Shown here: piece after piece, positions 3,900 through 61,837 of the stretch
How positions within the stretch are numbered: position 1 is the stretch's first letter
Layout of the letters: every line of letters starts with the position of its first letter
Assembly: GCF_900090205.1 (NCBI RefSeq)
Contig: NZ_LT607802.1
Span: 3,551,923 to 3,615,922 of the forward strand
Length of the DNA: 64,000 nucleotides
DNA from: Vogesella sp. LIG4
Lineage (GTDB): Bacteria; Pseudomonadota; Gammaproteobacteria; Burkholderiales; Chromobacteriaceae
Direction of reading: 5' to 3'
The notes under the pieces: model-generated
Database searches by the model: none
The model's input: only the letters and a program-made list of their open reading frames with translations
Told to the model about the DNA's origin: nothing
Position numbers and translations under genes: made by a program

Positions 3900-3912
3900 A
3901 AGGTTGGCCGCA
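3900..3912 (+). repeat. Exact copy of the 13-base word AAGGTTGGCCGCA
   Basis: Intergenic, between the EamA fragment and the 3' end of the LysR gene at 3944. It is one of 11 exact copies in the window; see the finding on the uptake-sequence-like word. Confidence 0.8.
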
Positions 3913-3943
3913 TCAGGCGCGTATTTGTCCGCACCGTGCTGTT

Positions 3944-4858
3944 TCAAGCAAGCGGCAAAGTTTGATCGCTACTGGTGCCCAGCCTGCCTTGCGCAAGCAG
4001 CCACTCGAATACAAGGGCGACGATCTCTGTTCGCGGCTTGCCTTCCACCCGCGAAATCCACCAGGTCACCCCCGGCAGACGTGGATAGCCCGCAAGAATT
4101 TCGAGCTTTCCTGTCTGCAAGCTGCTTTCAACAACCAGCTTGGAAAGCAGCGCGATACCTCGTCCACGCTCCACGGCGTCAAGCACCAGGCGCTGATCAT
4201 CATAGATGGCCCGCTGCTTGAATCCGGCCAGGCGCGTGCGAAATAGCGAGCCAGTCAGCTCATCCGTCAGTTGTTGTTCCAGACAAATCAGCCCGGTGTG
4301 TTGCGGATGCTGGTCAATTGGCAGCTCCCCCAGGGCCTGACACACCTCGGCTTTGGCAACCATCACCCATTCATCCTGGAACAGCGGCACTTCATGCAAG
4401 CCCGGCTGCTGGATCGGCGGCGAACCGATAGAGATATCCACATTGATTTCGTCGATGTAGTGAACCGACTCATCTGTCGACAGCAAGGGGCAGAGGGCGG
4501 GCAATTCTTGCTGCAACTGCTCCAGCCGGGGTTGCAACCAGCCATGCAGGATTGGCGCCGGGCCGACCAGGACAACCAGCCCGGGGTCCAGGTAAGTCGC
4601 TATCCGGCCAAGGCCGCTGCGCAGGGACTCCACCGAGCGCTGCACACTTCGTTGCAGCACTTCGCCGGCCACGGTCAACTCCACACCCCGCCCTTTGCGG
4701 CGGAACAGCTGCAGGCCAATCTGTTCCTCCAGCTGCTGAACCTGATGGCTGATAGCCGACTGCGACAGACAGAGTTCCTCGGCCGCGCGGGCAAAGCTGC
4801 CAAGCCTGGCCGCCGCTTCAAACCCCATCAGCAACTTGAGCGAAGGAATTCGGTTCAT
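3944..4858 (-). CDS. LysR-family regulator (GcvA-like), probable regulator of the agmatine genes
   Basis: The N-terminal winged helix-turn-helix reads SLKLLMGFEAAARLGSF then LSQSAISHQVQQLEEQIG, the GcvA/AmpR-like style, followed by a substrate-binding domain. I start at the ATG at 4858 (MNRIPSLKLL); a TTG ten codons upstream (4888) is possible but atypical. 304 residues. It is divergent from the agmatine deiminase gene, 106 bases away, so control of the agmatine/putrescine operon by a polyamine-related ligand is the natural inference. Confidence 0.85.
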   Translation of the reverse strand: MNRIPSLKLLMGFEAAARLGSFARAAEELCLSQSAISHQVQQLEEQIGLQLFRRKGRGVELTVAGEVLQRSVQRSVESLRSGLGRIATYLDPGLVVLVGPAPILHGWLQPRLEQLQQELPALCPLLSTDESVHYIDEINVDISIGSPPIQQPGLHEVPLFQDEWVMVAKAEVCQALGELPIDQHPQHTGLICLEQQLTDELTGSLFRTRLAGFKQRAIYDDQRLVLDAVERGRGIALLSKLVVESSLQTGKLEILAGYPRLPGVTWWISRVEGKPRTEIVALVFEWLLAQGRLGTSSDQTLPLA

Positions 4859-4964
4859 TGCACACAACTCATGAGAAAACTTGGTCAATCCTACTAATAA
4901 ACATCATTTTTCATCAAGTTTTCTAAGCATTAAAGTGAGCTCATCACAAGAGGAGGACTGAACG

Positions 4965-6029: not shown

Positions 6030-6947
6030 ATGACCGCAAGAACCATTACCGTAGCATCCGTTCAGATGGCGTCCGGCAGCTGGACCATCGAACACAATAT
6101 GGACCGGGCAGAACACCTGATCCGGCAAGCGGCGGCACAAGGCGCCAACCTGATCCTGTGCCCGGAACTATTCATGATGCCCTACTTCTGCCTGGACCAG
6201 AACGTGGACCATCTGCGCTGGGCCGAACCGTTGGAGGGCAATCCGCGTATTGCCCGTTTTGCCGCCCTGGCGGGCGAACTGGGCATCGTGCTGCCGATCG
6301 GCTTCTTCGAGCGCGCCGGCAACGCAGCCTACAACTCGATTGCCGTTGCCGATGCCGATGGCAAGGTGCTGGGGGTATACCGCAAGACCCATATCCCGGA
6401 TGGCCCCGGCTATACCGAGAAATTCTATTTCACTCCCGGCGATACCGGCTTCAAGGTATGGGATACCCGATTCGGCAAGATCGGTATCGGCATCTGCTGG
6501 GACCAGTGGTACCCGGAAACCGCCCGTAGCCTGGCCCTGATGGGCGCAGAAGTGCTGTGCTTCCCGACCATCATCGGTTCGGAACCCTTCAGCAGCGAAT
6601 TCGATTCGTCCGGCCATTGGCAGCGCACCATGCAAGGCCATGCCGCCGCCAATATGGTGCCGGTCGTTGCGGCCAACCGTATCGGCCAGGAAGCCGGCCT
6701 TGGCAATGGCAACTCCAGGCAGCAAGGGCTTACCGGTACTTTCTATGGCTCCAGCTTCATTGCCGACCATACCGGCGCCAAGGTGGCGGAGGCCAACCGC
6801 AGCGATGAAACCATTTTGCTGCACACCTTCGATCTGGACGCCATCCGCGCCGCACGCCAATGCTGGGGCTTTTTCCGTGACCGCCGTCCGGAAATGTACC
6901 GCACCCTGCTGACCAGCGACGGTCAGTCGTCCTGTTATCAAAAATAA
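6030..6947 (+). CDS. aguB: N-carbamoylputrescine amidase
   Basis: 305 residues, nitrilase superfamily. It converts N-carbamoylputrescine to putrescine, CO2 and ammonia. The Glu-Lys-Cys triad is visible as CPELF, YRKTHIPDGPGY and GICWDQWYPE. Length and motifs match AguB of plants and pseudomonads. It follows the agmatine deiminase closely with a modest ribosome site (GAGAAAG). The conserved VVAANRIG segment contains a core copy of the repeated word TGCGGCCAAC at 6668. Confidence 0.93.
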   Translation: MTARTITVASVQMASGSWTIEHNMDRAEHLIRQAAAQGANLILCPELFMMPYFCLDQNVDHLRWAEPLEGNPRIARFAALAGELGIVLPIGFFERAGNAAYNSIAVADADGKVLGVYRKTHIPDGPGYTEKFYFTPGDTGFKVWDTRFGKIGIGICWDQWYPETARSLALMGAEVLCFPTIIGSEPFSSEFDSSGHWQRTMQGHAAANMVPVVAANRIGQEAGLGNGNSRQQGLTGTFYGSSFIADHTGAKVAEANRSDETILLHTFDLDAIRAARQCWGFFRDRRPEMYRTLLTSDGQSSCYQK

Positions 6948-8135: not shown

Positions 8136-8264
8136 ATGGCCACGCAAAAGACCATGCAGGCTAGCCTGCGGCCAACCCTCTCCCGCCTTGCTGTCGCCGA
8201 CGGCAAGCGCGCTGATGCCCTCAGCGCTGATGTCCTCAGCATTCAAGCCGTCCACAGCTTCTGA
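8136..8264 (+). CDS. Possible small protein (42 residues)
   Basis: An ATG at 8136, just after the PotF-like gene and behind GAGGGCGGGC, opens a 42-codon frame ending in TGA. The product is basic and alanine-rich with no recognisable domain. It contains a core copy of the repeated word at 8167. It may be chance reading in GC-rich DNA. Confidence 0.2.
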   Translation: MATQKTMQASLRPTLSRLAVADGKRADALSADVLSIQAVHSF

Positions 8265-9486: not shown

Positions 9487-9499
9487 AAGGTTGGCCGCA
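9487..9499 (+). repeat. Exact copy of AAGGTTGGCCGCA
   Basis: Ends directly at the stop codon of the thioesterase gene (9500), in the gap after the second deiminase. Confidence 0.8.
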
Positions 9500-9925
9500 T
9501 CAGGCCTCGGCGCCTGCCGCGCGCAGCATGGCGCGCACCGGCTCGGGTATCGACACCGTCTTGCCGGCCTGATAGTCCACCCACACCAGCGTGGCCTCGC
9601 CCACCGCATACACGGCAGTGGGGTCACCTTCCTTGTAGAAGTGGTGCCGCAGCTTGAGGCTGCTGCGGCCAACCTTTTCCACTTCGATGGTGATCGCCAC
9701 CGTGGCCGGGTAGGTCAGCTCGCGCTTGTAGCTGCAGCTGGTATGCCCCAGCACCGGGCCGATGCCGGCGGGGTCGATGGGGAAGCCGGCGGCTTCCAGC
9801 CACTCCACGCGGATCTGCTCCATGTAGCGGAAGTAATAGGTATTGTTGAGATGCCCGACCGCATCCATGTCGCCCCAGCGCATGGTGATGATGCGGGTAT
9901 CCAGCAGCGGTAGTTGTTTTTCCAT
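9500..9925 (-). CDS. Acyl-CoA thioesterase, hotdog fold (4-hydroxybenzoyl-CoA thioesterase-like)
   Basis: 141 residues, the usual size of single-hotdog thioesterases that hydrolyse acyl-CoA in the cytoplasm. The signature WGDMDAVGHLNNTYYFRYME (residues about 17-36) contains the catalytic Asp-x-x-x-H-x-N pattern. It stands alone, convergent with the deiminase gene and divergent from thymidine kinase. Codons for KVGR in the middle of the gene carry an exact copy of the repeated 13-base word. Confidence 0.88.
   Translation of the reverse strand: MEKQLPLLDTRIITMRWGDMDAVGHLNNTYYFRYMEQIRVEWLEAAGFPIDPAGIGPVLGHTSCSYKRELTYPATVAITIEVEKVGRSSLKLRHHFYKEGDPTAVYAVGEATLVWVDYQAGKTVSIPEPVRAMLRAAGAEA
9664..9676 (-). 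repeat. Exact copy of AAGGTTGGCCGCA inside the thioesterase gene
   Basis: Encodes Lys-Val-Gly-Arg in the thioesterase frame. Confidence 0.8.
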
Positions 9926-11043: not shown

Positions 11044-11508
11044 CTAGGCAGCCGGCCGCGCCAGCTGCCGGCACAGCCCGCGCCGGCCGGCTTCCATCAG
11101 GTAGTCGTGATTCCACTCGAACAGCGGCCGCGCCAGCGGCGCCAGCCAGTTCATCCAGCGTCGGGTGGTACGCACCTGCCACAGGTAGCGCACCACGGTG
11201 GCGCCCTGCTCGCGGCTGAACTGCCAGCAGCCCACGCCTTCGACCTCGCCGCTGGCCCGCCCCACCAGCAGCGCCAGCGGCTGTACCGCGGTGATGTGCA
11301 CGTCGAAACTCAGCCGATACGGCAGCGCGCCCTTCCACACGTAGCGCTGGCGCGCCCCCACGCCGGCGGCGTCGCCGGGCGCCAGTTCCAGCACTTCCTC
11401 CACGCCCTGCCACCACTGCGGCCAACTGCGCACGTCGTAGATCACGCGCCACACCTCCTCCAGCGGCGCATCGAAACGCCACTGGGTGCAGAAGCGGTAT
11501 TCGGCCAT
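11044..11508 (-). CDS. SRPBCC-fold (polyketide cyclase/StAR-like) protein
   Basis: 154 residues beginning MAEYRFCTQWRFDAPLEEVW, the typical opening of START/Bet v1-like ligand-binding proteins, followed by YDVRSWPQWW. ATG at 11508 chosen over the GTG at 11517. It is the last gene of a four-gene minus-strand operon (12994 to 11044) with gaps of 10-27 bases. The other three products look exported while this one is cytoplasmic. The ligand is unknown. Confidence 0.75.
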   Translation of the reverse strand: MAEYRFCTQWRFDAPLEEVWRVIYDVRSWPQWWQGVEEVLELAPGDAAGVGARQRYVWKGALPYRLSFDVHITAVQPLALLVGRASGEVEGVGCWQFSREQGATVVRYLWQVRTTRRWMNWLAPLARPLFEWNHDYLMEAGRRGLCRQLARPAA

Positions 11509-12196: not shown

Positions 12197-12613
12197 CTAC
12201 TCCACCACTTCCAGCACACCTTCCATGCCGCGCGCGCGGTGGCTGGCGAAGAACAGCAGCTTGTGCGCGCAGTAGTAGGGATAGCTCCCCACCACCGTGG
12301 GCACGAAGCGGACCAGCTTGGGCTGTGCGGCCAACTCGGTGCGGATGTTCATGCCGGCCTGCGGCGCTTCCAGCACGAAGCTGTGCGGAATCAGCCCCGA
12401 CTCCATCTGCAGCGACAACTCCACCGGCACCCCGGCGCGCACGATGATGTGGGCGGGGTGGAAGAAATAACTGCCGCCCACCACCTGCACACGCTGCACG
12501 CCGTCGCCATCCACCTTGGCGCGGTAGGGCTCATCGCCGGCCCGCGCCCCTGCCGTAACAGTCAGCAGCGCCAGCAGCAACAGGCCGCGCCAGCTCAGGC
12601 AGTTTCCATCCAT
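12197..12613 (-). CDS. Secreted cupredoxin-domain protein
   Basis: 138 residues with a signal peptide (LLLLALLTVTAGARA). The mature domain is plastocyanin/EfeO-like: HPAHIIVRAGVPVELSL, IPHSFVLEAP and a C-terminal YYCAHKLLFFASHRARGMEG, giving the His, Cys, His and Met candidates of a type 1 copper site. ATG at 12613 has GGGAGGT just upstream; the GTG at 12619 overlaps that ribosome site. Probable periplasmic electron carrier or copper protein, working with the flanking exported proteins. Confidence 0.75.
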   Translation of the reverse strand: MDGNCLSWRGLLLLALLTVTAGARAGDEPYRAKVDGDGVQRVQVVGGSYFFHPAHIIVRAGVPVELSLQMESGLIPHSFVLEAPQAGMNIRTELAAQPKLVRFVPTVVGSYPYYCAHKLLFFASHRARGMEGVLEVVE

Positions 12614-15363: not shown

Positions 15364-15387
15364 TGGTTGGCCGCAAGCTGCCCCACG

Positions 15388-16191
15388 TCAGGCGCCGATG
15401 AAATCCGCCAGCGCCCGCCACATGAACGGCGGGTTGGCATACATAGGAAAGTGGCCGCACGCCGGCACCTCGGCCAACCGTACGCCGTGGCGGCGGATGT
15501 GCGCCAGGTAGCTCAGGCCGGCGTTCTGCTCGCCATACATGAACATCTTGCGGCAAGGCAGCGACAGGAAGCGCGTCATCAGCTCGCCGTGATCCGACAG
15601 CGCCACCATGGATTCGAAGATGCCGCGCACCGCGCCGGCGCGCACCTTGTGCCGCAGGTTGGCCGCATACAGCGCACTGGACCACGCCGGCGCCTGATAG
15701 GTACGGGCGATGAAATCGTCGAAGAAGGCCTGCACATCCGGGTTGGCATGCTCGACGATCTGCCGGCTCAAAAAGCAGTCCTCCGGCGCGATATTGCCCT
15801 CGATATTGCAGAAGCTGATAACGCGGCCCGGCAACTGCGACGCCAGCAGCAAGGCGGTGAGCCCGCCCATGGAGTGTCCCACCAGGTGGAATTTGTCCAC
15901 CCGGTAGTGCTGCAGCACCCGCAGCGCGGTGCCAAGCAGCAAGGGTATCGACACCCTAGTCAGGTCGCTGCAGCCGCTGTCGCCACAGCCCGGCGCATCG
16001 TAGGCGATGAGCGGATGCCCGTCGAAGGCGGCGTGCCGCACCATGTCGGCGTAGTCCTCCTTGCTGGAGCCGAAGCCGTGCAGAAACAGGATGGGCGCCT
16101 TGTCGCCAGGGCGATGGAGGGCAGCCAGATCCAGCGCCACGCCATCGATTTCGAATGCCAGCCGCTGGCTGGCGAGTTGCTTTGTCGTCAT
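15388..16191 (-). CDS. Alpha/beta-fold hydrolase
   Basis: 267 residues with the oxyanion HGFGSSKEDY, the nucleophile elbow VGHSMGGLTAL (Ser about 104), a likely acid near MFMYGEQ and the catalytic His in ACGHFPMYAN. Cytoplasmic, no signal peptide. Likely an esterase or C-C bond hydrolase; substrate unknown. It stands alone between chrA and the aminotransferase, with an exact 13-base word immediately upstream of its start. Confidence 0.82.
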   Translation of the reverse strand: MTTKQLASQRLAFEIDGVALDLAALHRPGDKAPILFLHGFGSSKEDYADMVRHAAFDGHPLIAYDAPGCGDSGCSDLTRVSIPLLLGTALRVLQHYRVDKFHLVGHSMGGLTALLLASQLPGRVISFCNIEGNIAPEDCFLSRQIVEHANPDVQAFFDDFIARTYQAPAWSSALYAANLRHKVRAGAVRGIFESMVALSDHGELMTRFLSLPCRKMFMYGEQNAGLSYLAHIRRHGVRLAEVPACGHFPMYANPPFMWRALADFIGA

Positions 16192-16213: not shown

Positions 16214-16226
16214 TGCGGCCAACCTT
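16214..16226 (-). repeat. Exact copy of AAGGTTGGCCGCA (minus strand)
   Basis: Lies in the 58-base gap between the hydrolase start and the end of the aminotransferase gene; a related GGCCGCAAC follows at 16234. Confidence 0.8.
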
Positions 16227-17476: not shown

Positions 17477-18114
17477 ACCCTCTCGCGCCAGGCAGCCAGG
17501 CCCATCAGCTCCAGGGTGGTCGCCCCCTGCGTCAGCTGGCTCATCATCATGCTTTCCTTGTCGGCGCGCGCTTCTCCGGCCTGCAGCGTACGCGCCGCAT
17601 CCACCGCCGGGATGATCACCACACCGTCGTCGTCCGCCACCAGCAGGTCGCCGGCAGCCACCGGCGCGCCGCCGAAGATCAGCGGCTGGCCCACTGCCGG
17701 CGCACTGGCCTTCACCGTGCCGCGCACCGATACGCCACGGGCAAATACCGGGAAGCGTCGCTTGGCGATGGCGGCGATGTCGCGCACGCCGCCGTTGATC
17801 ACCAGGCCGGCAAGGCCGGCCGCCTCCGCCGCCACGGTCAGCACCTCGCCCCAGTAGCCGGCGATGAAGCCGGCGGCATCCACCACCAGCACGCTGCCGC
17901 GCGGCGCGCGCTCCAGCGCAATGTGGATGGCCAGGTTGTCGCCGGGCGAGCACTGCAGCGGGTAGGCCGGCGCAGCGATGAAGGCGCCGGGCCAGATGCT
18001 GCGGATCTGCGGGTCCACCGCGCAAGGTTGGCCGCATGCCTCGTACAGGGTGGCGCTACCCAGCTGGCGGCAGCGCGCCGCCAGCGCCGGGTCGGTAAAC
18101 AGTTGCTCCATCAT
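17473..18114 (-). CDS. RraA-like aldolase, paralog 1 of 3
   Basis: 213 residues, RraA / 4-hydroxy-4-methyl-2-oxoglutarate (HMG/CHA) aldolase fold. The metal- and pyruvate-binding Arg-Asp pair is present in NGGVRDIAAI, followed by FPVFARGVSVRG. Such enzymes split 4-hydroxy-2-oxo diacids to pyruvate plus a second oxo acid, or decarboxylate oxaloacetate. The motif reads NGG where the other two copies read DGx, so it is the most divergent of the trio. Overlaps neighbours by 4 bases on both sides. Confidence 0.78.
   Translation of the reverse strand: MMEQLFTDPALAARCRQLGSATLYEACGQPCAVDPQIRSIWPGAFIAAPAYPLQCSPGDNLAIHIALERAPRGSVLVVDAAGFIAGYWGEVLTVAAEAAGLAGLVINGGVRDIAAIAKRRFPVFARGVSVRGTVKASAPAVGQPLIFGGAPVAAGDLLVADDDGVVIIPAVDAARTLQAGEARADKESMMMSQLTQGATTLELMGLAAWRERV
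18024..18036 (+). repeat. Exact copy of AAGGTTGGCCGCA inside RraA paralog 1
   Basis: Read on the gene strand it encodes Cys-Gly-Gln-Pro. Confidence 0.8.
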
Positions 18115-20863: not shown

Positions 20864-21811
20864 CTAGCGGCGGCTGGCCAGCAGTACGCCGCCGATCACC
20901 AGCACGGTGCCGGCCAGCTGCGGCAGCGATACCGGCTCATGCAGCAGCCACCAGCCAAAGAAAATGGTCAGCGCCGGGCCCAGCGTGCCGATCAGCACGG
21001 TACGCGCCGCACCCAGGTGGCGGATGGCGGTGGACTGCCAGAAGATGGGCAGCATGGTGGAAAACAGCGCCATGCCCAGGCTGTAACCGTACACCGGCAG
21101 CGGCAGCTGCAGCACCTGCAACGGGCGCGACAGCACGAAGTGCAGCGTCACCGCCGCGGTGGCGGTGAGGATGGCCAGGATGGAAAAACGCAGCGAACCC
21201 AGCCGCTGGATGGCCAGCTCGGAGCCGGCGCTGTACAGCGCATACAGCACCGCGCAGCCGAACACGAAGCCGGCGCCGATCAGCACGCTCTGCAATTCGC
21301 GGCTCTGGCTGGCGTCGTGCACGAAGGCAATGGCGATGCCGCCATAGGACAGCGCCGCAGCCAGTAGCATGCGCCCTTCCGCCTTGCGCCCCAGGAACAG
21401 CACGCCTATCAGGATGGTAAGCGTGGGATAGGTGAACAGGATCAAGCGCTCCAGCCCGGCGGAGATGTATTGCAGGCCGTAGAAATCGAGCATGCTGGAA
21501 CCGTAGTAACCGGCCACGCCCAGCATGAGCAGCAGGCCGACATCCCTTGCGGCCAACCTTGGCATGTCCCGCAGCACCGGCAGCGCCGCCAGCAGTACAA
21601 ACGGCAGGCACAGCACCATGCGCAGGGTGAGCAGGGTTACCGCATCCACCGTGGCCGCGGCGTAGGCCAGTTTGACGAAGATGGCCTTGAAGGAAAAACC
21701 GAATGCCGCCAGCAGGGCAAACATGACGCCGCGTCGTGGCGCGGCCTGTACCGTATTCAATTTTCGACTTTCGTGATCAGACCCCGCCATGGTCTTTGCC
21801 GGCGCCGGCAT
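20864..21811 (-). CDS. EamA/DMT-family transporter
   Basis: 315 residues with ten predicted membrane segments in two EamA repeats (MFALLAAFGFSFKAIFVKLAY, and a second half ending LAGTVLVIGGVLLASRR). Members move metabolites or amino acids across the inner membrane. Start at 21811 (ATG) or 21790 is not decided by a ribosome site. It is preceded by the palindromic terminator at 21875. The substrate is unknown. Confidence 0.83.
   Translation of the reverse strand: MPAPAKTMAGSDHESRKLNTVQAAPRRGVMFALLAAFGFSFKAIFVKLAYAAATVDAVTLLTLRMVLCLPFVLLAALPVLRDMPRLAARDVGLLLMLGVAGYYGSSMLDFYGLQYISAGLERLILFTYPTLTILIGVLFLGRKAEGRMLLAAALSYGGIAIAFVHDASQSRELQSVLIGAGFVFGCAVLYALYSAGSELAIQRLGSLRFSILAILTATAAVTLHFVLSRPLQVLQLPLPVYGYSLGMALFSTMLPIFWQSTAIRHLGAARTVLIGTLGPALTIFFGWWLLHEPVSLPQLAGTVLVIGGVLLASRR
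21548..21560 (-). repeat. Exact copy of AAGGTTGGCCGCA inside the EamA gene
   Basis: Encodes Arg-Leu-Ala-Ala in the transporter frame. Confidence 0.8.
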
Positions 21812-22795: not shown

Positions 22796-23974
22796 ATGCA
22801 CACGCCCGACCAGCTTCCCGCTACCCTGCCCCGCCCCGACTACCTGCTAAGCCTGGCCAACCTGGCGGCGCGCCTGCATGGCCGCCACGGCGTGCCGCCG
22901 CTGCAGCATGCGCTGCTGGACGGGCTGGAAGAAATCGAAACCGTGATCCTGCTGCTGATCGACGGCATGGGCGAGGCACAGCTGGCCGAGCTGGCGCCGG
23001 ATGGCTGGCTGGCGCATCAGCCGCGCACCCGGCTGCACTCGGTGTTCCCCAGCACCACCACGGCGGCAATCACCACCCTGCTCACCGGCGCGGCGCCGTC
23101 CGAGCACGGCCTGCTGTCCTGGCACGTGTGGGCGCCGCAGGCCGGCTGCATCGCCACGCCGCTGCCACTGCGCGAGCACTGGCGTGCGGAAGGCGAAGCG
23201 CTGCCGGACCAGACGCTGGCCGCCGCGCTGTACACCCAGCCTTCGGCACTGGCCGGCGGCGACCGCCGCCACTACGTGCTGCAGCCCGAGTACATTGCCG
23301 ATTCGCAGTACAGCCGCCACCACGGCGGCGCGGCCGAGGCGCTGCCCTGGCACGGCTACGATGCGCTGTTCGCGCAGCTGGCGGCACTGGCACGCCAGCC
23401 GGGGCGCAAGTTCATCTATGCCTATATTCCGGACCTGGATTCGCTGATGCATCACAAGGGCACCCGCCACCCCAGGGCAGCGCAGCTGCTGCAGCGTATC
23501 GATGCGCACTGCGCCGCGCTGGCGGTCACGCTACCCGCCAGTGCGCGGCTGCTGGTCACCGCCGACCACGGCCAGCTGGACATTCCGCCGGAAAAGCTGC
23601 TGTTCATCAACGACTACCCCGAGCTGGCCGCCATGCTGGCGCGGCCGCTGTGGGGCGAGCCGCGGGTGGCGTTCTGCACGCCGCGGCCGGAATGCCGCGA
23701 TGCCTTCCCAGCCTCCATCGAGGCGGCACTGGGGCATGTGCTGTGGGTATTGAAGGCGGAAGACGTGCTGGCGGCGCAGTGGTTCGGCCCGGCGCCGCAG
23801 CACCCGCAGTTGGCCGCAAGGGCCGGCGACTACGTGCTGCTGCTGAAGGATGACTGGGGCCTGCTGCAGATGGTGGATGACAGCGAGCGGCCGCGGCTGA
23901 TCGGCAACCACGGCGGCCTGAGCGCCGCCGAGATGCAGATTCCGCTGATTGTGTATCAGGGCACGGCCGGCTGA
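22796..23974 (+). CDS. Alkaline phosphatase superfamily nucleotide pyrophosphatase/phosphodiesterase
   Basis: 392 residues from the ATG at 22796 (406 from 22754; neither has a clear ribosome site). Motifs: LLIDGMGEA (metal Asp), the nucleophile Thr in FPSTTTAAITTLLTG, IPDLDSLMHHKGTRH, TADHGQLD and NHGGLS with the His/Asp metal ligands. Typical of type I phosphodiesterase / nucleotide pyrophosphatases. No signal peptide is evident. Contains a core repeat word at 23809. Substrate undetermined. Confidence 0.83.
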   Translation: MHTPDQLPATLPRPDYLLSLANLAARLHGRHGVPPLQHALLDGLEEIETVILLLIDGMGEAQLAELAPDGWLAHQPRTRLHSVFPSTTTAAITTLLTGAAPSEHGLLSWHVWAPQAGCIATPLPLREHWRAEGEALPDQTLAAALYTQPSALAGGDRRHYVLQPEYIADSQYSRHHGGAAEALPWHGYDALFAQLAALARQPGRKFIYAYIPDLDSLMHHKGTRHPRAAQLLQRIDAHCAALAVTLPASARLLVTADHGQLDIPPEKLLFINDYPELAAMLARPLWGEPRVAFCTPRPECRDAFPASIEAALGHVLWVLKAEDVLAAQWFGPAPQHPQLAARAGDYVLLLKDDWGLLQMVDDSERPRLIGNHGGLSAAEMQIPLIVYQGTAG

Positions 23975-24121: not shown

Positions 24122-25117
24122 TCACAGTACCGGCGTGCTCTCCTGCTGCGGCCAACGTTGCTGCCATTCGCGCCAGGCCTCGCGGCTGAGCGTGGCCGGA
24201 AACACCGCGCGGCGGCGCTGCTGCAGGTAGCCCAGCAGCACTTCGGCATAGTCCAGCTGCTGCCCGCCCTGCTCCGGCGGCGTCAGCACTCCCATGCGAT
24301 TCACCCAGACCGTATCCTGCCGCGCCTGGATGTATTCCTCCGGGCCATCCAGCACCTGCTGCAGCAGGAGCAGCTTGCCGCTGAGCGAGCCCGGTTGGCC
24401 ACCGGCCAGCAGTTCGCGCTCCACCTCATCCAGCCGCTGCTCGGCCTGCTCGCGGCTCAGGTTGCTGCCCAGGCTCAGCGCCTCGGCATTGAGCAGGCTG
24501 CTGCCGCTCTTCAGCTGCAACTGCAGCGCCTGGCGTTCGATCTGCAGCAGCTTGTGCCGCGCCTCCAGCTGCTGCATGCCCTGCCCCAGGCTGGCGCACC
24601 ACACCGCAAACGCATGCTCGCGCCCCTTGCGCACCGCTTCCTCGCGGGTGCTGCCGGCGGCAACGAAGCGGTGGCGGTCGAAGCTCAGCACCGTCTGCGG
24701 CACGTCCTTGCGAATGGAGCCATCCGGCAGCAGCACGCTGCCGAGGCGGTGCGATTCGGTAGGCTGCATCGACAGCATCAGCTGCACGGTGTCGGCGGAC
24801 GACGGGTGGGAAAAATACTCGTGCAGCGATTCGCTGCCGGCCAGGATGTCACTGAGCGACTGCGGCGAGGCAAACAGCAGGCCGACGCGGCGGTCCAGGC
24901 TGTAGCCGGGCACGCTCAGGTCCAGCGAATCCGGCAGGTGGTCGCACAGGTCGTGCATGTACTGCAGGGTGCGTTTCACCCCGCGGCGCAGCTTGCGGCG
25001 GCCGTCCGGCAGCAGGCGGATGCGCGGGTCAACCTCCTCCACCAGCAGCTCCATCGCCGCTTCCACGTTTTGCCGGGTAATTGCCTGGGCATTGCCCAGC
25101 AGCCATTCCCACATCAT
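24122..25117 (-). CDS. Conserved-looking hypothetical protein (331 residues)
   Basis: Starts [13 protein letters not shown] at 25117. No signal peptide or membrane segment. A central helical stretch ([40 protein letters not shown]) looks coiled-coil. N-terminal segments [20 protein letters not shown] and [19 protein letters not shown] are well-ordered in style, so I take it as a real gene, but I recognise no family. Convergent with the phosphodiesterase; the repeated word core sits near its 3' end (24147). Confidence 0.65.
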
Positions 25118-26609: not shown

Positions 26610-26639
26610 CTTGCGGCCAACCCCATAGTTGGCCGCAAG
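26610..26639. terminator. Inverted pair of repeat words forming a 12-base-pair hairpin
   Basis: CTTGCGGCCAAC (26610-26621), 6-base loop, GTTGGCCGCAAG (26628-26639), between the convergent MCP and GMC genes. There is no T-run, so it is a hairpin terminator of weak type or an uptake-word pair. Confidence 0.6.
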
Positions 26640-31464: not shown

Positions 31465-31477
31465 TGCGGCCAACCTT
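31465..31477 (-). repeat. Exact copy of AAGGTTGGCCGCA (minus strand)
   Basis: Intergenic, 35 bases after the VWA gene stop. Confidence 0.8.
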
Positions 31478-31603: not shown

Positions 31604-31798
31604 ACGGGGTTTCGCGGACCATAAGGGGCGAGCGGGGTCGCTAGGGGCAGCGGTACGCCCCCTAGCCCGTTCGCCGGGCGGAACCGGCGACTTCAAACAT
31701 CATCCGCGCAGCGGATTCCACACTCGACAACACAAGCATTGAAGCGTGGCCAACGTTGGCCGCATGGCCCCCGGCGGATCGCCCTGCGGGCATCCGCC

Positions 31799-32122: not shown

Positions 32123-32217
32123 GTCCGGCTCCTATCGATATTGCCGCCAGCATGCGCCCGCCACCCGCAGTAGGCAACCCTGCGGCCAGCAGGGTTGGCC
32201 GCAGCGCAGGAGGCAAC

Positions 32218-35546: not shown

Positions 35547-35834
35547 CACTCCCCCTTGCGGCCAACGCCGCAGCTGATTTGCAACCATGCTAGCGCAAAA
35601 TGCGGCGACGCAAAAAAAGCGGGCCGGCCACAAGGCCAGCCCGTCAAGGTATTGCAACAAGGGAAGGATTGATAGCGGTACGGCGTACCACCGATCACAT
35701 CCACGCCAGAGATAGCAAAATCTCGACGTGCAGCTAGATTACTCATAATTTCATGCCATTTCAATGACATGCACCGGCGGTGGGGGCAATGCGCTACAAT
35801 CGCGCCCTTTTGCATTGCGCAGGACAAGCACCGC

Positions 35835-37586: not shown

Positions 37587-38471
37587 TTACACCACCGCCG
37601 CCTGCTGTTCCAGCCACTGGCAGAAGGCGTGGATCGCGCTGTCATCCAGCGCGGCGCGCGGCGCAATCCAGCAGTAGTCGCGCACCGGCACTACCGGTGC
37701 GGCCAACGGTGCCACCAGTTGCCCCGCCTCCAGCGCCCGCTGCGCCATCGGCAACGGCCCCAGCACCACGCCCAGCCCCTCGATGGCGGCTTGCAGCGCC
37801 AGCGAGAAGCGCTCGAAATGCAGGCTGCTGGCCGGCTTCAGATCCGGCACCCCGGCCAGGGTGAACCAGCGCTGCCACGCCGTGGGGCGAGTATCGGCGT
37901 ACAGCAGCGTGTGCCGCGCCAGGTCCGCCGCCGTAGCCACCGGCAGCGCCGCCAGCAGCGCCGGGCTGCACAGCGGCAGCTCCCACTCCTTCAGGAACGG
38001 CTTGGCGATATGCCCCGGCCAGTCACCCGGCCCGCGACGGATGGCGATGTCGAACGGCGATTCCAGCCGGCTGATGTCGCGGTCGGAGGTCACCAGGTGC
38101 AGGTCGATGTCCGGGTACTGGCGGCGAAAATCCGCCAGCCGCGGCAGCAGCCAGAACGAGGCCAGCGTTGGCGTGGAGTTGATCACCAGCCGCCGCTGCC
38201 GGTCCGGCTGCAGCAGCTGCGAGGTGGCGTTGGCGATCAGGTCCAGCCCGTCCTGCACCTGCACCAGGTAGCGCCAACCGGTCTCGGTGAGCTTGACGCG
38301 GCCGCCGGCGCGCTCGAACAGTGGCACGTTCAGCCACTCCTCCAGCTGCTTGATCTGCTTGCTCACAGCACCGTGGGTGACGTGCAACTCGTTGGCCGCA
38401 GCGGAAAAGCTTTCCAGCCTTGCTGCCGCCTCGAAAATACGCAATGCATTCAGGGGGGGATATGTACTCAT
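37587..38471 (-). CDS. LysR-family regulator (GcvA-like) divergent from acnB
   Basis: 294 residues. Opening PPLNALRIFEAAARLESFS then HVTHGAVSKQIKQLEEWLNV is the GcvA-type winged helix, followed by an effector domain (INSTPTLASFWLLPRLADF). Divergent from acnB with 176 bases between starts, which hold a perfect 14-base palindrome at 38515. It may control acnB or itself; GcvA-like regulators often sense amino acids. Confidence 0.87.
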   Translation of the reverse strand: MSTYPPLNALRIFEAAARLESFSAAANELHVTHGAVSKQIKQLEEWLNVPLFERAGGRVKLTETGWRYLVQVQDGLDLIANATSQLLQPDRQRRLVINSTPTLASFWLLPRLADFRRQYPDIDLHLVTSDRDISRLESPFDIAIRRGPGDWPGHIAKPFLKEWELPLCSPALLAALPVATAADLARHTLLYADTRPTAWQRWFTLAGVPDLKPASSLHFERFSLALQAAIEGLGVVLGPLPMAQRALEAGQLVAPLAAPVVPVRDYCWIAPRAALDDSAIHAFCQWLEQQAAVV

Positions 38472-42912: not shown

Positions 42913-43143
42913 TCAATAGGTGTAATCGGGCCGGCGCAGCAGATCCGTCATGCGCGGAACGATCAGCGTCTCGTAGACCTGTTGTTGCCACAGAGCTGGC
43001 TCAACAGGCTGCAGATCCACCGACACGGCCCCGGTAAGGCATGACAGTTCCTGTTGCAGCAACTGTGTGAGCGATTGCTGGATGCGCTCCAGGTTGGCCG
43101 CAGGGATGTCGGCCTTAAAACAATGAATGACAACATGTGGCAT
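42913..43143 (-). CDS. 4-oxalocrotonate tautomerase-like small protein
   Basis: 76 residues. The protein begins Met-Pro (MPHVVIHCFKADIP); removal of Met leaves the catalytic N-terminal proline of the tautomerase superfamily. Fifteen bases downstream of the NRPS and part of its operon, so it may tautomerise a glutamine-derived intermediate (enamine/imine or keto/enol form) during pigment formation. That role is inference; such a gene is not part of the minimal indigoidine system. Confidence 0.75.
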   Translation of the reverse strand: MPHVVIHCFKADIPAANLERIQQSLTQLLQQELSCLTGAVSVDLQPVEPALWQQQVYETLIVPRMTDLLRRPDYTY

Positions 43144-43158: not shown

Positions 43159-46100
43159 TCAGCTCAGTCCGGCGGACTGCATGGCGGCAATGCCTTCCGG
43201 CTTCAGCACGGTGTAATGGCCCACGGCCAGATCGTGCCAGCAGATATCGAGACCGGTTTGGGCGCCCTCCGCGATGAAGGACTCACCATCACCATGCGCC
43301 CGCCAAACCGAGATGGTGCAGCGCAGGGGCTTGTCGGCCAGGGCAATCTGGTAATCCGGCGAGTAGGTCACGGTCACGACGTTGACGATGGCCTCGATCA
43401 GCGTGCGGTCCATGGCGGGGAATGCCTCCGCCACAAAGGTGATGAAAGCAGCATGGCTGTTTACGTGCGCCAGGCAGTCCGCGCTCAATGCCGGGTCGAT
43501 ATCATGTGCGAATACCGATAGCAGAATGGTCAGGAATGCCGGGTTGGCAAACAGCTCGCTCTCGTCCCGGCTGACCGGTTCGGCATAGGGCAGCTGTGGC
43601 GAACCCGGAGCCAGCAAGACCAGCTCGCTGACGGTTTCACCTTGCTGTTCAAGCTGATAGGCCACTTCGTATGCAACCCGGGCACCAAAGGAGTACCCCC
43701 ACAGGGCATATGGGCCCCGTGGTTGTAGGCTACGGATCAACCGCACATCTTCGATGGCCATGGCCTCGATGCTGCTGAAAGCGGTTTCACCCGCATTAAT
43801 GCCGTGTGACTGCATGCCATAGAAACGGCCGTCACCGGCCATGGCTTCACCCAGTTGACGCAGGTTCATCGGATATCCGCCCAGACCGGGCCAGCAGAAG
43901 GTGGCGCGGTGACCGTTGTGTCCTGCCAGCAAAATGGCACGGCTGGCGGTCTGCCCATCACCCTCGCTAACGACTTTTGCCAGCTTTTCGATGCTCGGGG
44001 CGCTGAAGATCAGCTGAATCGGCAGGTCGACCGCGAACTGGCGATTGATGGCACGGGCAATGGCCACGGCTTGAATCGAGTTGCCGCCCAGCGCGAAGAA
44101 ATCGTCGACTACTGAGACTTGTTCCTGTCCGAGAATATGGCACCAGATCCGGCTAATAGCCTGCTCCGTCGCATTGCGTGCCGGCACGAAAGGCTGCTCC
44201 TGATCGGCCAGCTGGAAGATGGCTGATTGTTTGAGTGCATGCACATCAACCTTCCCGGATGCGCTGTGCGGCATCTGGTTGACGATGACCATGAGCCCCG
44301 GAACCATGTAATCCGGCAAGCTGTTGAGTAGATCGGCCCGAATCAGCTCGGCCGGGCCTTTCATGTGGACGGCATCTTCATCCATGCCGATATGGCTGGC
44401 CTGTTCCTCACTGATCTTGCCAAACAGGCAAAAGTAGCTCGGGCCCACTTGTCGATCTGCGTCGCTGATGATGTCGTTCAGACGCAAGGCGGTGGCCAGA
44501 TTGTTACCACTCTTGGAGCTGTAGCCTGATGACATGGTGCCAAACCCGATGCGGTTCATTTGCACCCGCTGCAAGCTGCGCCCCAGATCGATGTATTGCC
44601 GCCACGGCTCGTGGCACTGGCTTACAAAAGAGAGGCCACCACTGGCTCGCTGGTAGACCTGCTGATTGATTGCAATCACATGGCGCTGCTCAATCAGAAA
44701 GCTGGACACCTTGTTCAGCTTGCCCTGACGGTATAGATAACTACCGTCGGGCAGATCGCTGACCCTGCCTTGCTGTGCCTGGACATAGATGTCTACGAGC
44801 ATGTCATCGACCCGTTCGGCCAACGGTACGATGTCATAGCTACCCAGGTAATCATGTTCGTCCGGGCAATCCAACCGGGCCAGGACATCAGGCATATACG
44901 TACCTTGGCCAACTCCGTAGCCGTATGCCGGCAGGACATGATCCAGCATGCCCAGAACGTGGCCGGTTTCCATTTCCAGCACTTCCAGGATGTTGTTCTT
45001 GTAGACCTCACGGATGGCGGGAGTTTTGCCGACAAAGTGCAGCCGCAAACGGGGAGCCGTTGCGGTGGTGTCGGCCAGCAGATAGAGGCAGTGCTGCACC
45101 GGATGGTAGTAATAGAACCCAGCAGGCAATCCGGCTACGTTGTTCAGCTCGATATACACCTGGGTGGCGTACAGTGCACCAGGCGAGGCATAGCCAAATT
45201 TTGGCAATAGCCGCTCAACGCTGTGGAATTGCCCCAGATAACGAAGCATTTCGCCCAACTTGGCCGCGTCCAGATCGGCTAGCCGAGCCGATGTAGCACC
45301 TTCCGGTTGCATGGCCAGCAGCTGCAGGATATCGGCCGCTGCCACGGGCGCTCCGCGGAAGAAGCGATAAGTCTTGCGGGCGAATACCCGCTCACGCTGG
45401 GCTGGGGTTTCCTGCTGGCCAGCCAGGGGAATCTGCCGCTTGCCTACTAGGCTGTCTTCGCTGCGAAAGCCACGCCCGGATAACTGGGCCTTGATCTGAT
45501 GGCGAGTCGATTTAGTCTGGTGGTGTGACTCGGCGGCCCCCTGATCCATCAGCCGCGCCTCGTTCGGGTTCAGTTCAACCGCTCCGATCAACTGAGCATG
45601 ACCACTGCGGGCGTTTTCTTTTACAAACACGGCCGCCGATTTCACCCAGTCGTGGTTCTCGATGGCGAGGCGAATTTCATCCAGTTCGATGCGGTAGCCG
45701 CGGAATTTAATCTGGTTGTCCGTGCGGCCAACGAAGTGCAACACGCCATCCCGATCGACTTTGACCAAATCCCCGGTGCGATACATCCTCACTGGAGGAT
45801 GTGCTGCGTCCAATTGGACCGCGGGGAACTTTTCTTCAGTTTGTTCAGGGCGGAATAGGTAGCCATTTGCCAGCTGGGTTCCGCCGATAAACAGTTCTCC
45901 AGTCTCGCCCGGTGCGACTGGCACTAACTGGGGGTCAAGCACCTGGCTGTGCAGCCCGGCAACCGGCAGACCAATCGGAGCGATCTCCCATTCGTGGGCC
46001 AAGCTACGTTGATCAATACGATAGTGTGTGGCGTTGATAGTGCATTCGGTCGGGCCGTACAGGTTGACCAGCCGGCAATCCGGCAGCATCTGCAACAAAT

Positions 46101-47072: not shown

Positions 47073-47831
47073 TTAGCAACAGCCGAACAAGCGACCAAAG
47101 CCGTCAAATTGATCGCCAACGCCACTCATTCTCATCGCGTGCCAATATAAAACCGTGTTGTTCGCGATAACTGGCTTGCCAGTCCACTGTTCTGCGGTAT
47201 GCGCGAAGCTGCTCATCGGCACATTGGTACCCACTTGGACAATGGCCTCGACACCCGGCGCATTGGCCGTTTCCACCGCTTGCCGCAGGTCTTGCAGGCT
47301 GACCTCTGCAATTCGGGATGGGCTCTGCCCCCCCAGATTGGCCAGTGCCACTACCTCATAGCCCTTGTCCACAAAGAACTGCGACACGGCCTCATTCCCA
47401 ATAGCGGTATACGGGGAAATCAGGCCGATGCGGCGCACATTTCCCAGGCGAGCCAGAGCTTCTTCAATGGCATCGGCGCTGGTGGTGATCCCGATGCCGC
47501 CCGCAGCGTCCTGCAAGTGCCCCAGCATCTGCTGATGCCCCTCTACCCCTCTCCAGTAAGCATCCGGCGAGACAGCCACGATGATGCGGTTGAGCTGGCA
47601 ATCTTTCAGGGTCTTGATTGCCGGTTCGGTCGATCTGCGCATGGCATGGATCACACTGTTGAAGCCTGGCTCTGCAGTAAGCGCCTCATCCACGATGACC
47701 ATGCGGCCAACATGGTTGGTCACGCCAAACGGGCGCATGCTGTCCATTTCCGGCTGGGCAGAAGTGTTAGTCGACGGGATGACTACGCCTATACGCAAAC
47801 GGTGGCCGAGAACTTTGGGTGTATTGCTCAT
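47073..47831 (-). CDS. Maleate isomerase / Asp-Glu racemase-like protein lacking the usual cysteines
   Basis: 252 residues, first gene of the indigoidine operon. Opening RIGVVIPSTNTSAQPEMD, then VGTNVPMSSFAHTAEQWTGKPVIANNTVLYWHA, match the maleate cis-trans isomerase / arylmalonate decarboxylase family. The two catalytic Cys positions read Ser-Pro (AVSPDAYW) and Gly (QVGTNVPM), so racemase-type two-cysteine chemistry is unlikely. It may have a non-catalytic or decarboxylase/hydrolase-like role near the pigment pathway. It ends 51 bases before the NRPS. Confidence 0.72.
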   Translation of the reverse strand: MSNTPKVLGHRLRIGVVIPSTNTSAQPEMDSMRPFGVTNHVGRMVIVDEALTAEPGFNSVIHAMRRSTEPAIKTLKDCQLNRIIVAVSPDAYWRGVEGHQQMLGHLQDAAGGIGITTSADAIEEALARLGNVRRIGLISPYTAIGNEAVSQFFVDKGYEVVALANLGGQSPSRIAEVSLQDLRQAVETANAPGVEAIVQVGTNVPMSSFAHTAEQWTGKPVIANNTVLYWHAMRMSGVGDQFDGFGRLFGCC

Positions 47832-56073: not shown

Positions 56074-56124
56074 GGCGGATCTCCTGCTCGATGTGGCGCC
56101 CCGCGCCAGGCGGGGCGACGGGCA

Positions 56125-59360: not shown

Positions 59361-59462
59361 GTCAGTCGACCAGGACAGTACAGTGACTGCATCGACCCCG
59401 TGGTGGCAAAGCGTCGCCACTAATTAACTCACGGTAAAAAACATGCCGTAAATGACACTGAC

Positions 59463-60644
59463 TCAAACAGGCATCAAGCGCTGACCGCGGCCGACCAGGG
59501 AGGCGCCGAGCAACAGCAGAACCATCCCGCCCAGAAACGTCGCGTGGATCGAGAGGTGATCCAGCAGCGCGCCACCCAGCGCACCGCCCAGCAAAATTGC
59601 CAGCTGGATAGCGGCCACCAGCAAGCCGCCACCGGCCTCCTGCGCATCTGGCAGGCTGTGCGCCAGCCAGGCGGACCAACTCACCGGAATCGCGGCGTTC
59701 AATCCACCCCAGATCAGCAGACAAAGTGCTGCCCACACTGGCACGCTGCCGGTAAGCAACAAGGCCAGTGTGGCCAGGGCCAGCAATAGCGGCAGCCCGC
59801 CCAGCAAGCGATACAGATGCGATGTCAGTAGACGGCTGGCCAAGTGTGTGCCGGCAAAACCCGCCACACCCAGCACAAATAGCAGCAGTGAGAGCTGTGG
59901 CAGCGAAACGTGGGTTTGTGATTCGAGGAACGGACGGAAGTAGGTAAAGCTGGTAAAAGCACCCGCAAAAGTCAACATCACCGCCGGCATGGCGACCCGC
60001 ACGTGAGAGCGTGCCCACAAGCTACGCAGCCTGAGGTTGGCCGCAGTCTGCCGGGCGGGCATGGGTGGCAGGCTACGCCATTGCCACCACAGGTTCAGGG
60101 CCACCAGCGGCACCATCAGCCAGAACACACCGCGCCACCCCACTAGACCGCCGAGATAGCTGCCCAGCGGTGCGGCCAACGTGGTAGCCACAGCGTTGCC
60201 GGTATACAGAGCCCCCAGTGCAGACGGCACGGCTGCCGCCGGCACCAACCGGCTTACTGTTGCCGTGGCCAACGACCAAAAGCCGCCAACCACGACTCCC
60301 AGCAGCGCCCGTGCCAACATCAGTACGCCAAAGTTGTGTGCCAGTGCCATACAAGCCAGCGAAAGCAGCATCAGACCGGTCAGGCCCAGTAGCACGTGGC
60401 GCCGATCCATGCCCCGGCATACACGGGTAATCAGCAGGCTCGCCAGCACGGCAAAAAAGCCGGAAATGGCAATGGCTTGTCCGGCCATGCCTTCGCTGGC
60501 ACCCAGGTCAGCGGCTAGTGGCGTCAACAGGCTGACCGGCATGAACTCAGCAGCAATCAGCATCGCCACGCAGAAAGACATCGACAAGACAGCGCTACGA
60601 TGCGGTGCCGCGCTGGAGGCAGAAGCGCTAGAAAAATTAGACAT
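59463..60644 (-). CDS. MFS efflux transporter (AraJ/PbuE-like)
   Basis: 393 residues from the ATG at 60644. Twelve predicted membrane helices; AAEFMPVSLLTPLAADLG in helix 1 and RALLGVVVGGFWSLATATV in helix 4 are typical of DHA1 sugar or drug exporters. Downstream of the secreted hydrolase gene by 110 bases on the same strand. Substrate unknown. Confidence 0.88.
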   Translation of the reverse strand: MSNFSSASASSAAPHRSAVLSMSFCVAMLIAAEFMPVSLLTPLAADLGASEGMAGQAIAISGFFAVLASLLITRVCRGMDRRHVLLGLTGLMLLSLACMALAHNFGVLMLARALLGVVVGGFWSLATATVSRLVPAAAVPSALGALYTGNAVATTLAAPLGSYLGGLVGWRGVFWLMVPLVALNLWWQWRSLPPMPARQTAANLRLRSLWARSHVRVAMPAVMLTFAGAFTSFTYFRPFLESQTHVSLPQLSLLLFVLGVAGFAGTHLASRLLTSHLYRLLGGLPLLLALATLALLLTGSVPVWAALCLLIWGGLNAAIPVSWSAWLAHSLPDAQEAGGGLLVAAIQLAILLGGALGGALLDHLSIHATFLGGMVLLLLGASLVGRGQRLMPV

Positions 60645-60754
60645 GGAATTCCCAAGAAGAGGCAGATCGTGCAGCACGAGAACCGTGGCGCACGCATGAA
60701 GACATGGCTGGACTACTCACCACCGTGGGTAGTCCAGCAACCTGAGGGAAGCGA

Positions 60755-61837
60755 TTACTTCAGGTTCTTGCCGAAGAAGTCAGCAATGGCATCAAACGGA
60801 ATGCGGTCGACACGATCGTACAAATCGACATGGTTGGCGCCCTTGACGATCAGCAGTTCCTTCGGTTCGGCTGCCGCGGCGTACGCAGTTTCGGCAAAGT
60901 AGCGGGAATGGGCCAACTCGCCATGCACGAATAGGATGGGGCGCGGCGAGATTTCCTTGATGTAGCTAAGGATGGGCATGTTCATGAATGACAGCGGCGT
61001 CGTCACCGTCCACGCATTGCCCGAGTTGACAGCCCGCGGATGGTAGCCACGCGGAGTCATATAGTAGTCGGCGTAGTCCAGCAGGAACTGCGGTTCGCCC
61101 CCCTTCAACTTGTTGTAGGCAGGCTGGTAGGCGGGCTGGCCGTTGGCCGCATCTTCCCAGCGCTGGCGGCTCAGTTGTTCAAGCGTCTTACGGCGTTGTT
61201 CCGGCGTAACGCTGTCGTTGTAGCCCCTGGACATGACGCGGGTCATATCGTACATGGTGCTGGCCACCACGGCTTTGACACGCTTGTCGACTGCCACCGC
61301 ATTCAGCGCCATGCCACCCCAGCCACAAATGCCAATGGCACCGATGCGCTCCCGATCGACGTAGGACTGCAGACCGATGAAGTCCACTGCCGCCATGAAG
61401 TCCTCGGTATTGATATCGGGTGATGCCACATTTCGTGGTTCGCCACCGCTCTCGCCGGTGTAGGAACCATCGAACGCCAGTGTGACAAAGCCACGCTCGG
61501 CCATGGATTGCGCATACAAGCCTGAAGCTTGTTCCTTCACCGCACCAAACGGGCCGCCCACCACAAGTGCGGCTAGACGCAGGCCTTGGCGGTTCTTTGG
61601 CAGGTATAGATCAGCAGCCAGGGTGATACCGTAGCGGTTTTTGAAGGTGACTTTTTGGTGGTCTACCTTGTCGCTCTTGGCAAAGGTCTTATCCCATTCT
61701 TGCGTCAGTTGCATGGCATGCTCCTCTGTTGCGAGAGGAGCGGCCACGGCACGCACAGCATGGCTGCTGATGGCTAGCGCCATACCCGCAGCCATGGCGC
61801 TCAGGATGAAGCGCTTTCTGGATATTGTGATGCCCAT
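60755..61837 (-). CDS. Exported alpha/beta hydrolase (YcjY/dienelactone hydrolase-like)
   Basis: 360 residues from the ATG at 61837 (GGAGGT 7 bases upstream). N terminus SRKRFILSAMAAGMALAISS is a signal peptide with a basic Ser-Arg-Lys-Arg-Phe start, possibly Tat. The nucleophile elbow reads GICGWGGMAL, so the nucleophile is Cys, as in dienelactone hydrolases; acid near FVHGELAHS and His in GANHVDLYD. Probably periplasmic. First gene with the MFS pump downstream. Confidence 0.83.
   Translation of the reverse strand: MGITISRKRFILSAMAAGMALAISSHAVRAVAAPLATEEHAMQLTQEWDKTFAKSDKVDHQKVTFKNRYGITLAADLYLPKNRQGLRLAALVVGGPFGAVKEQASGLYAQSMAERGFVTLAFDGSYTGESGGEPRNVASPDINTEDFMAAVDFIGLQSYVDRERIGAIGICGWGGMALNAVAVDKRVKAVVASTMYDMTRVMSRGYNDSVTPEQRRKTLEQLSRQRWEDAANGQPAYQPAYNKLKGGEPQFLLDYADYYMTPRGYHPRAVNSGNAWTVTTPLSFMNMPILSYIKEISPRPILFVHGELAHSRYFAETAYAAAAEPKELLIVKGANHVDLYDRVDRIPFDAIADFFGKNLK

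Follow-up and report, generated by a model that had tools for sequence, protein, structure and literature searches.

The closest described counterparts of the element reported here are the DNA uptake sequences (DUS) of the Neisseriaceae, which occur in hundreds to thousands of copies, far above chance, in equal orientations and both in genes and in gaps. In Neisseria, inverted DUS pairs lie behind genes, and the pilin ComP has an electropositive globular domain. The uptake signal sequences (USS) of the Pasteurellaceae have a core, AAGTGCGGT, which is followed by A/T-rich tracts. In the survey by Frye et al. (2013; PMC3630211), eight DUS dialects are described, and all of them share CTG at +6 to +8 as well as A at +10; no obvious DUS is reported there for Laribacter, Lutiella nitroferrum 2002, Pseudogulbenkiania NH8B and two Chromobacterium, BLAST found no ComP in C. 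violaceum, and the origin of DUS is placed after the split from Chromobacterium. Here we describe a dispersed word in a stretch of 64,000 nucleotides of Vogesella sp. LIG4 (NZ_LT607802.1, positions 3,551,923 to 3,615,922; GCF_900090205.1), hereafter the window. The host differs from those of the described DUS in that Vogesella belongs to the Chromobacteriaceae, outside the Neisseriaceae. The original prediction, made from the window alone, had noticed a repeated 13-base word, AAGGTTGGCCGCA (the 13-mer), with a 10-base core, GTTGGCCGCA (the GCA word), and had suggested that it could be the uptake sequence of another Neisseriales lineage.

The word is very probably an uptake sequence of some kind. 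That the GCA word with a soft A-A-G leader is the DUS dialect of Vogesella, read by a ComP-like minor pilin on the type IV pilus, is the reading we consider probable on the sequence data; it is held less firmly because it includes ComP as the receptor, while the link between ComP and dialect is loose. Window counts were controlled by 100 dinucleotide shuffles and genome counts by the reversed word. The window contains 11 exact copies of the 13-mer (shuffle mean 0.01) and 34 copies of the GCA word, 18 on the plus and 16 on the minus strand (shuffle mean 0.61), and none of the 100 shuffles reached either number. All eleven starts predicted for the 13-mer were correct; the predicted total of 34 for the GCA word was also right, with four of its starts off by one or two bases (15656 is 15658, 26611 is 26612, 43091 is 43093 and 60034 is 60036). 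A genome-wide count, proposed as a check of the prediction, bore it out: in the own genome (one contig of 4,147,242 bases) the GCA word occurs 1,458 times forward and 1,437 times reverse, 2,895 in all, against 4 + 4 = 8 for the reversed word. The sites in the window, located by exact sequence match and with their context taken from called genes, are as follows.

3900..3912 (+), word with full AAG leader, between genes
6668..6677 (-), 10-mer word, in gene
8167..8176 (-), 10-mer word, between genes according to the gene calls used
9487..9499 (+), word with full leader, between genes
9664..9676 (-), word with full leader, in gene
11417..11426 (-), 10-mer word, in gene
12326..12335 (-), 10-mer word, in gene
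15366..15375 (+), 10-mer word, between genes
15658..15667 (+), 10-mer word, in gene
16214..16226 (-), word with full leader, between genes
18024..18036 (+), word with full leader, in gene
21548..21560 (-), word with full leader, in gene
23809..23818 (+), 10-mer word, in gene
24147..24156 (-), 10-mer word, in gene
26612..26621 (-), left half of an inverted word pair with a 6-base loop, in a gap between convergent genes, possible stem of a transcription terminator
26628..26637 (+), right half of the inverted word pair
28202..28211 (-), 10-mer word, in gene
28624..28636 (+), word with full leader, in gene
29529..29541 (+), word with full leader, antisense in an aldehyde dehydrogenase gene
31465..31477 (-), word with full leader, between genes
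31755..31764 (+), 10-mer word, between genes
32194..32203 (+), 10-mer word, between genes
34294..34306 (+), word with full leader, in gene
34648..34660 (+), word with full leader, in gene
35557..35566 (-), 10-mer word, between genes
36574..36583 (+), 10-mer word, in gene
37698..37707 (-), 10-mer word, in gene
38391..38400 (+), 10-mer word, in gene
43093..43102 (+), 10-mer word, between genes
45723..45732 (-), 10-mer word, in a peptide synthetase reading frame
47702..47711 (-), 10-mer word, in gene
60036..60045 (+), 10-mer word, in called gene
60171..60180 (-), 10-mer word, in called gene
61142..61151 (+), 10-mer word, in called gene

The shape and placement of the word were assessed in a sample of 464 kb, consisting of the window and 20 stretches of 20 kb each from the own genome, with 313 copies. 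A profile built from 312 of these sites (one edge site was dropped) revealed an invariant 10-mer preceded by a soft A-A-G leader, with frequencies of 0.55 for A, 0.51 for A and 0.52 for G at positions -3 to -1; beyond the leader conservation was weak (at most 0.22 bits). The predicted 13-base unit thus has a real excess but is better described as an invariant 10-mer with a soft leader. Only three of the 30 one-mismatch variants were visibly above the Markov expectation, namely G at +10 (20 vs 8.2 expected), A at +4 (3 vs 0.4) and T at +6 (4 vs 0.5), and therefore the word is near all-or-none.

Related words were found elsewhere in the family. Named loci were obtained by a profile search of genome contigs with a ComEC alignment and represent the best 80 of 435 confirmed stretches. 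The GCA word was common at all seven Vogesella-type loci (8-20 copies per 15-22 kb), one of which is filed as 'Beta proteobacterium L13'. The word GTTGGCCGAA (the GAA word) occurred at the loci of Pseudogulbenkiania ferrooxidans 2002, which by its strain number we take to be the former Lutiella nitroferrum 2002 (7 copies in 20 kb), P. subflava (6, likewise in 20 kb), Gulbenkiania mobilis (10), strain JH1-16 (13) and one uncultured Aquitalea (7), and the word GTTGGCCGAG (the GAG word) at the Crenobacter luteus locus (10). Loci of Chromobacterium, other Aquitalea, Craterilacuibacter and Paludibacterium held only 0-2 copies of any of the three words. Some loci fitted poorly: a metagenome-assembled genome (MAG) filed as Pseudogulbenkiania (L138) had one GTTGGCCGAA in 13.6 kb and Crenobacter oryzisoli (L142) three in 20 kb, and the word count was zero at two other Crenobacter loci (L143, L148).

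Whole-genome counts gave a sharper picture for the 61 family genomes. The GCA word numbered 1,871-2,895 in all 13 genomes of the genus Vogesella (0.47-0.70 per kb) and at most 58 in the 24 of the 48 other family genomes in which it was counted. Eight genomes from five other genera held 183-2,168 copies of the GAA word, and the two genomes of one genus had 1,940 and 1,590 copies of the GAG word. The remaining 38 genomes had no more than 62 GAA and 92 GAG words; 19 Chromobacterium-group and nine of ten Aquitalea-group genomes were at background, and two genomes of genus g8 (G027, G036) were slightly above it (GAA 62 and 45, GAG 92 and 85). Among 291 genomes sampled elsewhere in the order, none exceeded 47 copies of the GAA word by our reading. 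The genome whose ComEC is identical to that of P. subflava had 893 GAA words. A genus-mate of it and of a genome with 1,104, the 84% complete G029 (genus g2), had 183, which makes its word-bearing status marginal; decay, a dialect change or a poor assembly are alternative explanations. The genome G017, whose ComEC is identical to that of the uncultured Aquitalea locus (L126), carried two words, 1,368 copies of the GAA word and 616 of GTTTGCCGAA; in the nine other genomes of its genus the GAA word was at background, as was GTTTGCCGAA in the one genome checked (44 in G030). In the wordless genera, no other dominant dispersed word was seen in 60 kb each of G035, G030 (Aquitalea-group) and G019 (g8), in 80 kb of G028 (Crenobacter caeni) or in smaller samples of five more genomes; a weak dialect could have escaped.

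In a ComEC tree built by a quick method, all nine GCA rows formed one clade with support 100, in which the own genome stood beside V. oryzae. This grouping with Vogesella supports the predicted assignment to a different Neisseriales lineage. The GAA rows were scattered, a pattern that fits, but does not prove, the GAA word being the older state with later losses. The rows G035, L138, L144 and G021 had very long branches and were probably badly extracted, so that their positions are meaningless.

Going beyond the original prediction, there are several related dialects in the family, and the words resemble Neisseriaceae DUS in register. The letters of the described dialects were taken from excerpts of PMC7371117, PMC10715097 and PMC12061091. 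The family's AGGTTGGCCGAA matched AG-mucDUS (AGGTCGTCTGAA) and AG-simDUS (AGGCTGCCTGAA) unshifted at 9 of 12 positions (shuffle p 0.004 in register, 0.010 in any register), and the best register was unshifted and on the same strand for all seven dialects tried (wadDUS was excluded for its insertion). The likeness was weaker for the bare 10-mer of AGGTTGGCCGAA (p 0.016 in register and 0.080 in any register) and for the Vogesella word, which matched at 8 of 12 positions (p 0.016 and 0.078; as a 10-mer 0.080 and 0.397). Further features shared with the Neisseriaceae DUS are the 10-mer with its soft leader, strand balance, occurrence in genes and gaps, lineage-specific dialects, a ComP homologue and two dialects in one genome (G017 here, Simonsiella there). 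The AG, AT or AA leader of the DUS appears here as a preference: over the three dialects, A has a frequency of 0.51-0.61 at -2 and G one of 0.46-0.67 at -1. Position +10 is A in the GCA and GAA dialects and G in the GAG dialect. In contrast to the CTG of the DUS, the core at +6 to +8 is CCG in all three dialects, with G at +5; this alters the triplet that underlies present thinking on how ComP recognizes DNA. On the matches above, a common origin with the DUS of the Neisseriaceae is plausible but not proven, and the word seems to work like a DUS while standing outside the DUS definition by its family and core, with ComP as the probable receptor.

With the Pasteurellaceae USS the word shares many dispersed, strand-balanced copies. 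Its reverse complement, TGCGGCCAAC, has TGCGG in common with the USS core and differs from one USS form by C/T changes only. Kinship with the USS was dropped, as the GAA and GAG dialects interrupt the TGCGG stretch and no A/T-rich flank is conserved at the 312 sites; the hosts also belong to a different class of bacteria. In the literature collection searched, uptake sequences gave nothing for Vogesella, only PMC3630211 for Pseudogulbenkiania and three papers (PMC6546665 among them) for the Chromobacteriaceae, and searches with the letters of the words gave nothing on uptake sequences among the matches listed. Table S1D of PMC3630211 may include the word of Pseudogulbenkiania among its over-represented 10-mers, with no DUS reading attached.

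A genome without competence pili would have spoken against the original prediction. The own genome has a PilQ homologue (by a cut-off that one of 14 control genomes passed), 16 pilin-type leaders, homologues of ComEC and DprA, and a candidate ComP gene (C1:1559002-1559418) about 2.1 kb from pilQ. Among solved structures, the first match of the ComP candidate by sequence was 2m3k (E 2.5e-4), followed by 5hz7 and, third, 2nba (E 0.036); its match to the family profile had an E of 8.5e-20. The best fold match of its predicted model was likewise ComP, with 20-25% identity in structural alignments. With Neisseria ComP (PDB 2m3k, 5hz7, 2nba) the candidate shares the prepilin leader, the long helix, the beta-sheet globular domain, the C-terminal cysteine pair and the WPxLP motif. 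A ComP homologue was present in all 23 word-bearing genomes of the family. In the own genome (C1:1549001-1569000, L214) comP follows a fimT-like gene and faces the gene run that contains pilQ, and in several sister genera comP is the last gene of an apparently full minor-pilin operon, with gene names given from order and size. Other pilin clusters of the own genome lie at 1.52, 2.15 and 4.15 Mb. The own ComEC reading frame (L088, C1:1900787) has, in translation, an exact 33-residue direct repeat near its start.

The ComEC and DprA cut-offs were each also passed by 10 of 14 control genomes, so that both homologues are weak evidence of uptake machinery. Several observations weigh against ComP as the receptor. 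The own ComP candidate did not reach the cut-off of Pfam ComP_DUS (23.8 vs 27.3 bits; the Vogesella genome G003 scored 32.3), and two PilE-like paralogues exceeded it (72.1 and 53.1 bits); the Pfam model was dropped as a ComP marker for being too broad. The ComP profile was built partly from genomes against which it was searched, and its weaker matches (E 1e-15 to 1e-19), seen in part of the Chromobacterium-group and g8 genomes, could represent other pilins. ComP homologues were also found in 34 of the 38 wordless family genomes; ComP by itself is therefore no predictor of the word. The net charge of the ComP globular domain was +2 in the own genome, -2 to +5 in 12 Vogesella and -4 to 0 in eight other word-bearing rows; it is thus not uniformly positive and, with no pattern over the 20 rows, was rejected as a receptor marker. 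In a comparison of ComP with ComEC, in which C. luteus stood in for the ComEC of G015, GAA genera were equally similar to one another in both proteins (ComP 0.52-0.58, ComEC 0.52-0.60; three pairs). Two Vogesella differed from three GAA genera more in ComP (0.34-0.44) than in ComEC (0.50-0.56; six pairs), and GAA-GAG pairs gave 0.45-0.49 for ComP and 0.49-0.54 for ComEC (three pairs). The two Vogesella, with the same word, had already diverged in ComP (0.52 vs 0.64 for ComEC), and a wordless Aquitalea-group genome had 0.42-0.45 for ComP and 0.50-0.57 for ComEC against the GAA genera. Over the whole mature protein, ComP of a Vogesella type (G005) was 47% identical to the P. subflava copy, and that of a wordless Chromobacterium-group genome likewise 47% identical to the Pseudogulbenkiania copy. 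The divergence of ComP thus appears to track dialect only loosely, and the link is weak.

The Pfam scores, the wordless genomes with a ComP homologue, the lack of a charge pattern and the loose link to dialect favour an uptake sequence whose receptor is another pilin, such as a PilE-like paralogue (L006, L002; at 2.15 or 4.15 Mb), or a protein that is not a pilin. We regard this as unlikely, since the paralogues match no ComP chain among the solved structures at E<=1, whereas ComP is the candidate's first match by sequence and the best fit of its model.

The placement of the word was determined with 415 called genes, an approximate set formed by the union of two gene callings. As predicted, copies lay in gaps and in genes and in both orientations: 208 were genic (0.53/kb; 97 in gene sense and 111 antisense), 104 intergenic (1.51/kb, about three times the genic density) and one crossed a gene boundary. 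High density throughout the genome without gene specificity would also suit a site for a nucleoid protein or a signal for chromosome maintenance or recombination resembling Chi or the FtsK-orienting polar sequences (KOPS). Chi and KOPS are oriented signals. The sample words were balanced between leading and lagging strands (165/148 by GC-skew sign, p 0.37; 166/147 with an assumed origin), and on this balance the Chi- or KOPS-like signal was rejected. The threefold density between genes, the change of one or two letters between genera and the background level in the Chromobacterium-group and nearly all Aquitalea-group genomes also make this class of explanation very improbable. It also fits poorly with two low-GC samples (0.54 and 0.53), in which the word is scarce (1 and 2 per 20 kb, against 9-21 in the other 18 samples). 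By our own reading of protein starts, there is a site-specific-recombinase-like protein in the first, and there are restriction- and transposition-like ones in the second; both stretches look island-like.

A transcription terminator or a dispersed hairpin resembling the repetitive extragenic palindromic (REP) elements is suggested by the close pairs. All 22 word pairs no more than 40 bp apart were inverted and outside genes (one of them runs 11 bases into the end of a called gene), as are the inverted DUS pairs behind genes; 11 lay in convergent, 11 in tandem and none in divergent gaps, and overall word density was 3.44/kb in convergent, 1.45/kb in tandem and 0.43/kb in divergent gaps. As an origin of the word, this is just as improbable: the pairs hold only 44 of the 313 sample words, about two thirds of which are genic, and TTT followed within 10 bases in only five of the 22 pairs. 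A REP-like repeat was rejected because conservation ends near the word. A role as terminator would probably be a secondary use of the word.

Within genes, the prediction that more than one reading frame is used holds, with a strong bias: 167 of the 208 genic copies read Leu-Ala-Ala (68) or Ala-Ala-Asn (99) in one frame. Such a bias could reflect the codon or dipeptide preferences of a GC-rich genome, an explanation of practically no weight that was rejected on the intergenic excess (104 copies vs 0.59 expected) and the codon-triplet excess, with the base outside the codons also fixed: for Leu-Ala-Ala (n=421), TTG-GCC-GCA was used 70 times vs 1.4 expected, preceded by G in 68 of 70, and for Ala-Ala-Asn (n=122), GCG-GCC-AAC 106 times vs 16 expected, preceded in 99 of 106 by T, which makes up 9% of third codon positions. 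The excess sits at the DNA level, and the word shapes codon choice rather than codon choice the word.

Returning to a DUS dialect read by ComP, we propose the following course. Free DNA that bears the word would be bound by the ComP-like minor pilin on the type IV pilus, drawn through the PilQ secretin and handed on by ComEC; DprA would protect the incoming DNA, which would then be recombined. Because word-bearing DNA would be taken up more often, recombination would slowly load the genome with the word wherever sites tolerate it. We infer the binding, the word-dependent uptake and this accumulation from the homologues, numbers and placement described above. Related genera would use the GAA or GAG word likewise. 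Most likely, the word would serve as a 'self' label for taking up the DNA of relatives, and the labelling of DNA for uptake, as described for Neisseria and close relatives, appears to reach into a second family.

A wider scenario can be offered tentatively. Words read by ComP may predate the Neisseriaceae and go back to an ancestor shared with the Chromobacteriaceae, in which case the CTG core would not be fixed and could become CCG; in Chromobacterium and most Aquitalea the word may have been lost and a homologue of the receptor gene retained, and Vogesella may have switched from the GAA to the GCA word, its ComP moving away from that of the GAA genera. An open alternative is that the Chromobacteriaceae evolved their word independently with the same pilin. 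The loci of P. ferrooxidans 2002 and P. subflava carry the GAA word, though the 2013 survey saw no obvious DUS in Pseudogulbenkiania NH8B and Lutiella nitroferrum 2002. The second family offers at least three dialects, a genome with two, wordless sisters with a ComP homologue and a wordless genus without one. These are natural replicates for asking how thousands of words and their receptor evolve in step. Transformation of these non-model freshwater bacteria might become easier if the right word were added.

Word places turn over within Vogesella, and word numbers are kept. In alignment with V. oryzae, the nearest named species, 10 of 13 own words were intact (p 3.5e-5; baseline 22% identical 10-base windows), and against six further Vogesella-type records two to three of 8-10 own words were intact, which is at baseline (p 0.14-0.54). 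Word-poor stretches may mark recently acquired DNA. The window itself has 12 kb without the word (48001-60000), with a GC content of about 0.60 vs 0.63 for the window and regulators and transporters among its genes; it is perhaps acquired DNA.

The peptide synthetase reading frame of the window (43159-49833, up to 1,306 codons) has adenylation, carrier and thioesterase domains, with a long stretch without domain assignment between the first two, and a phosphopantetheinyl transferase gene lies nearby. Its layout resembles that of indigoidine synthetase, the blue-pigment enzyme of Vogesella indigofera; no NCBIfam model for this enzyme was among the 25 of 101 matches listed. Finally, arrays of a single word with 22 and 12 units at a spacing of 70-74 bases occur in a Glaciimonas MAG (L159:2689-4189) and in Herminiimonas (L160:53-843), respectively, and look like arrays of clustered regularly interspaced short palindromic repeats (CRISPR).

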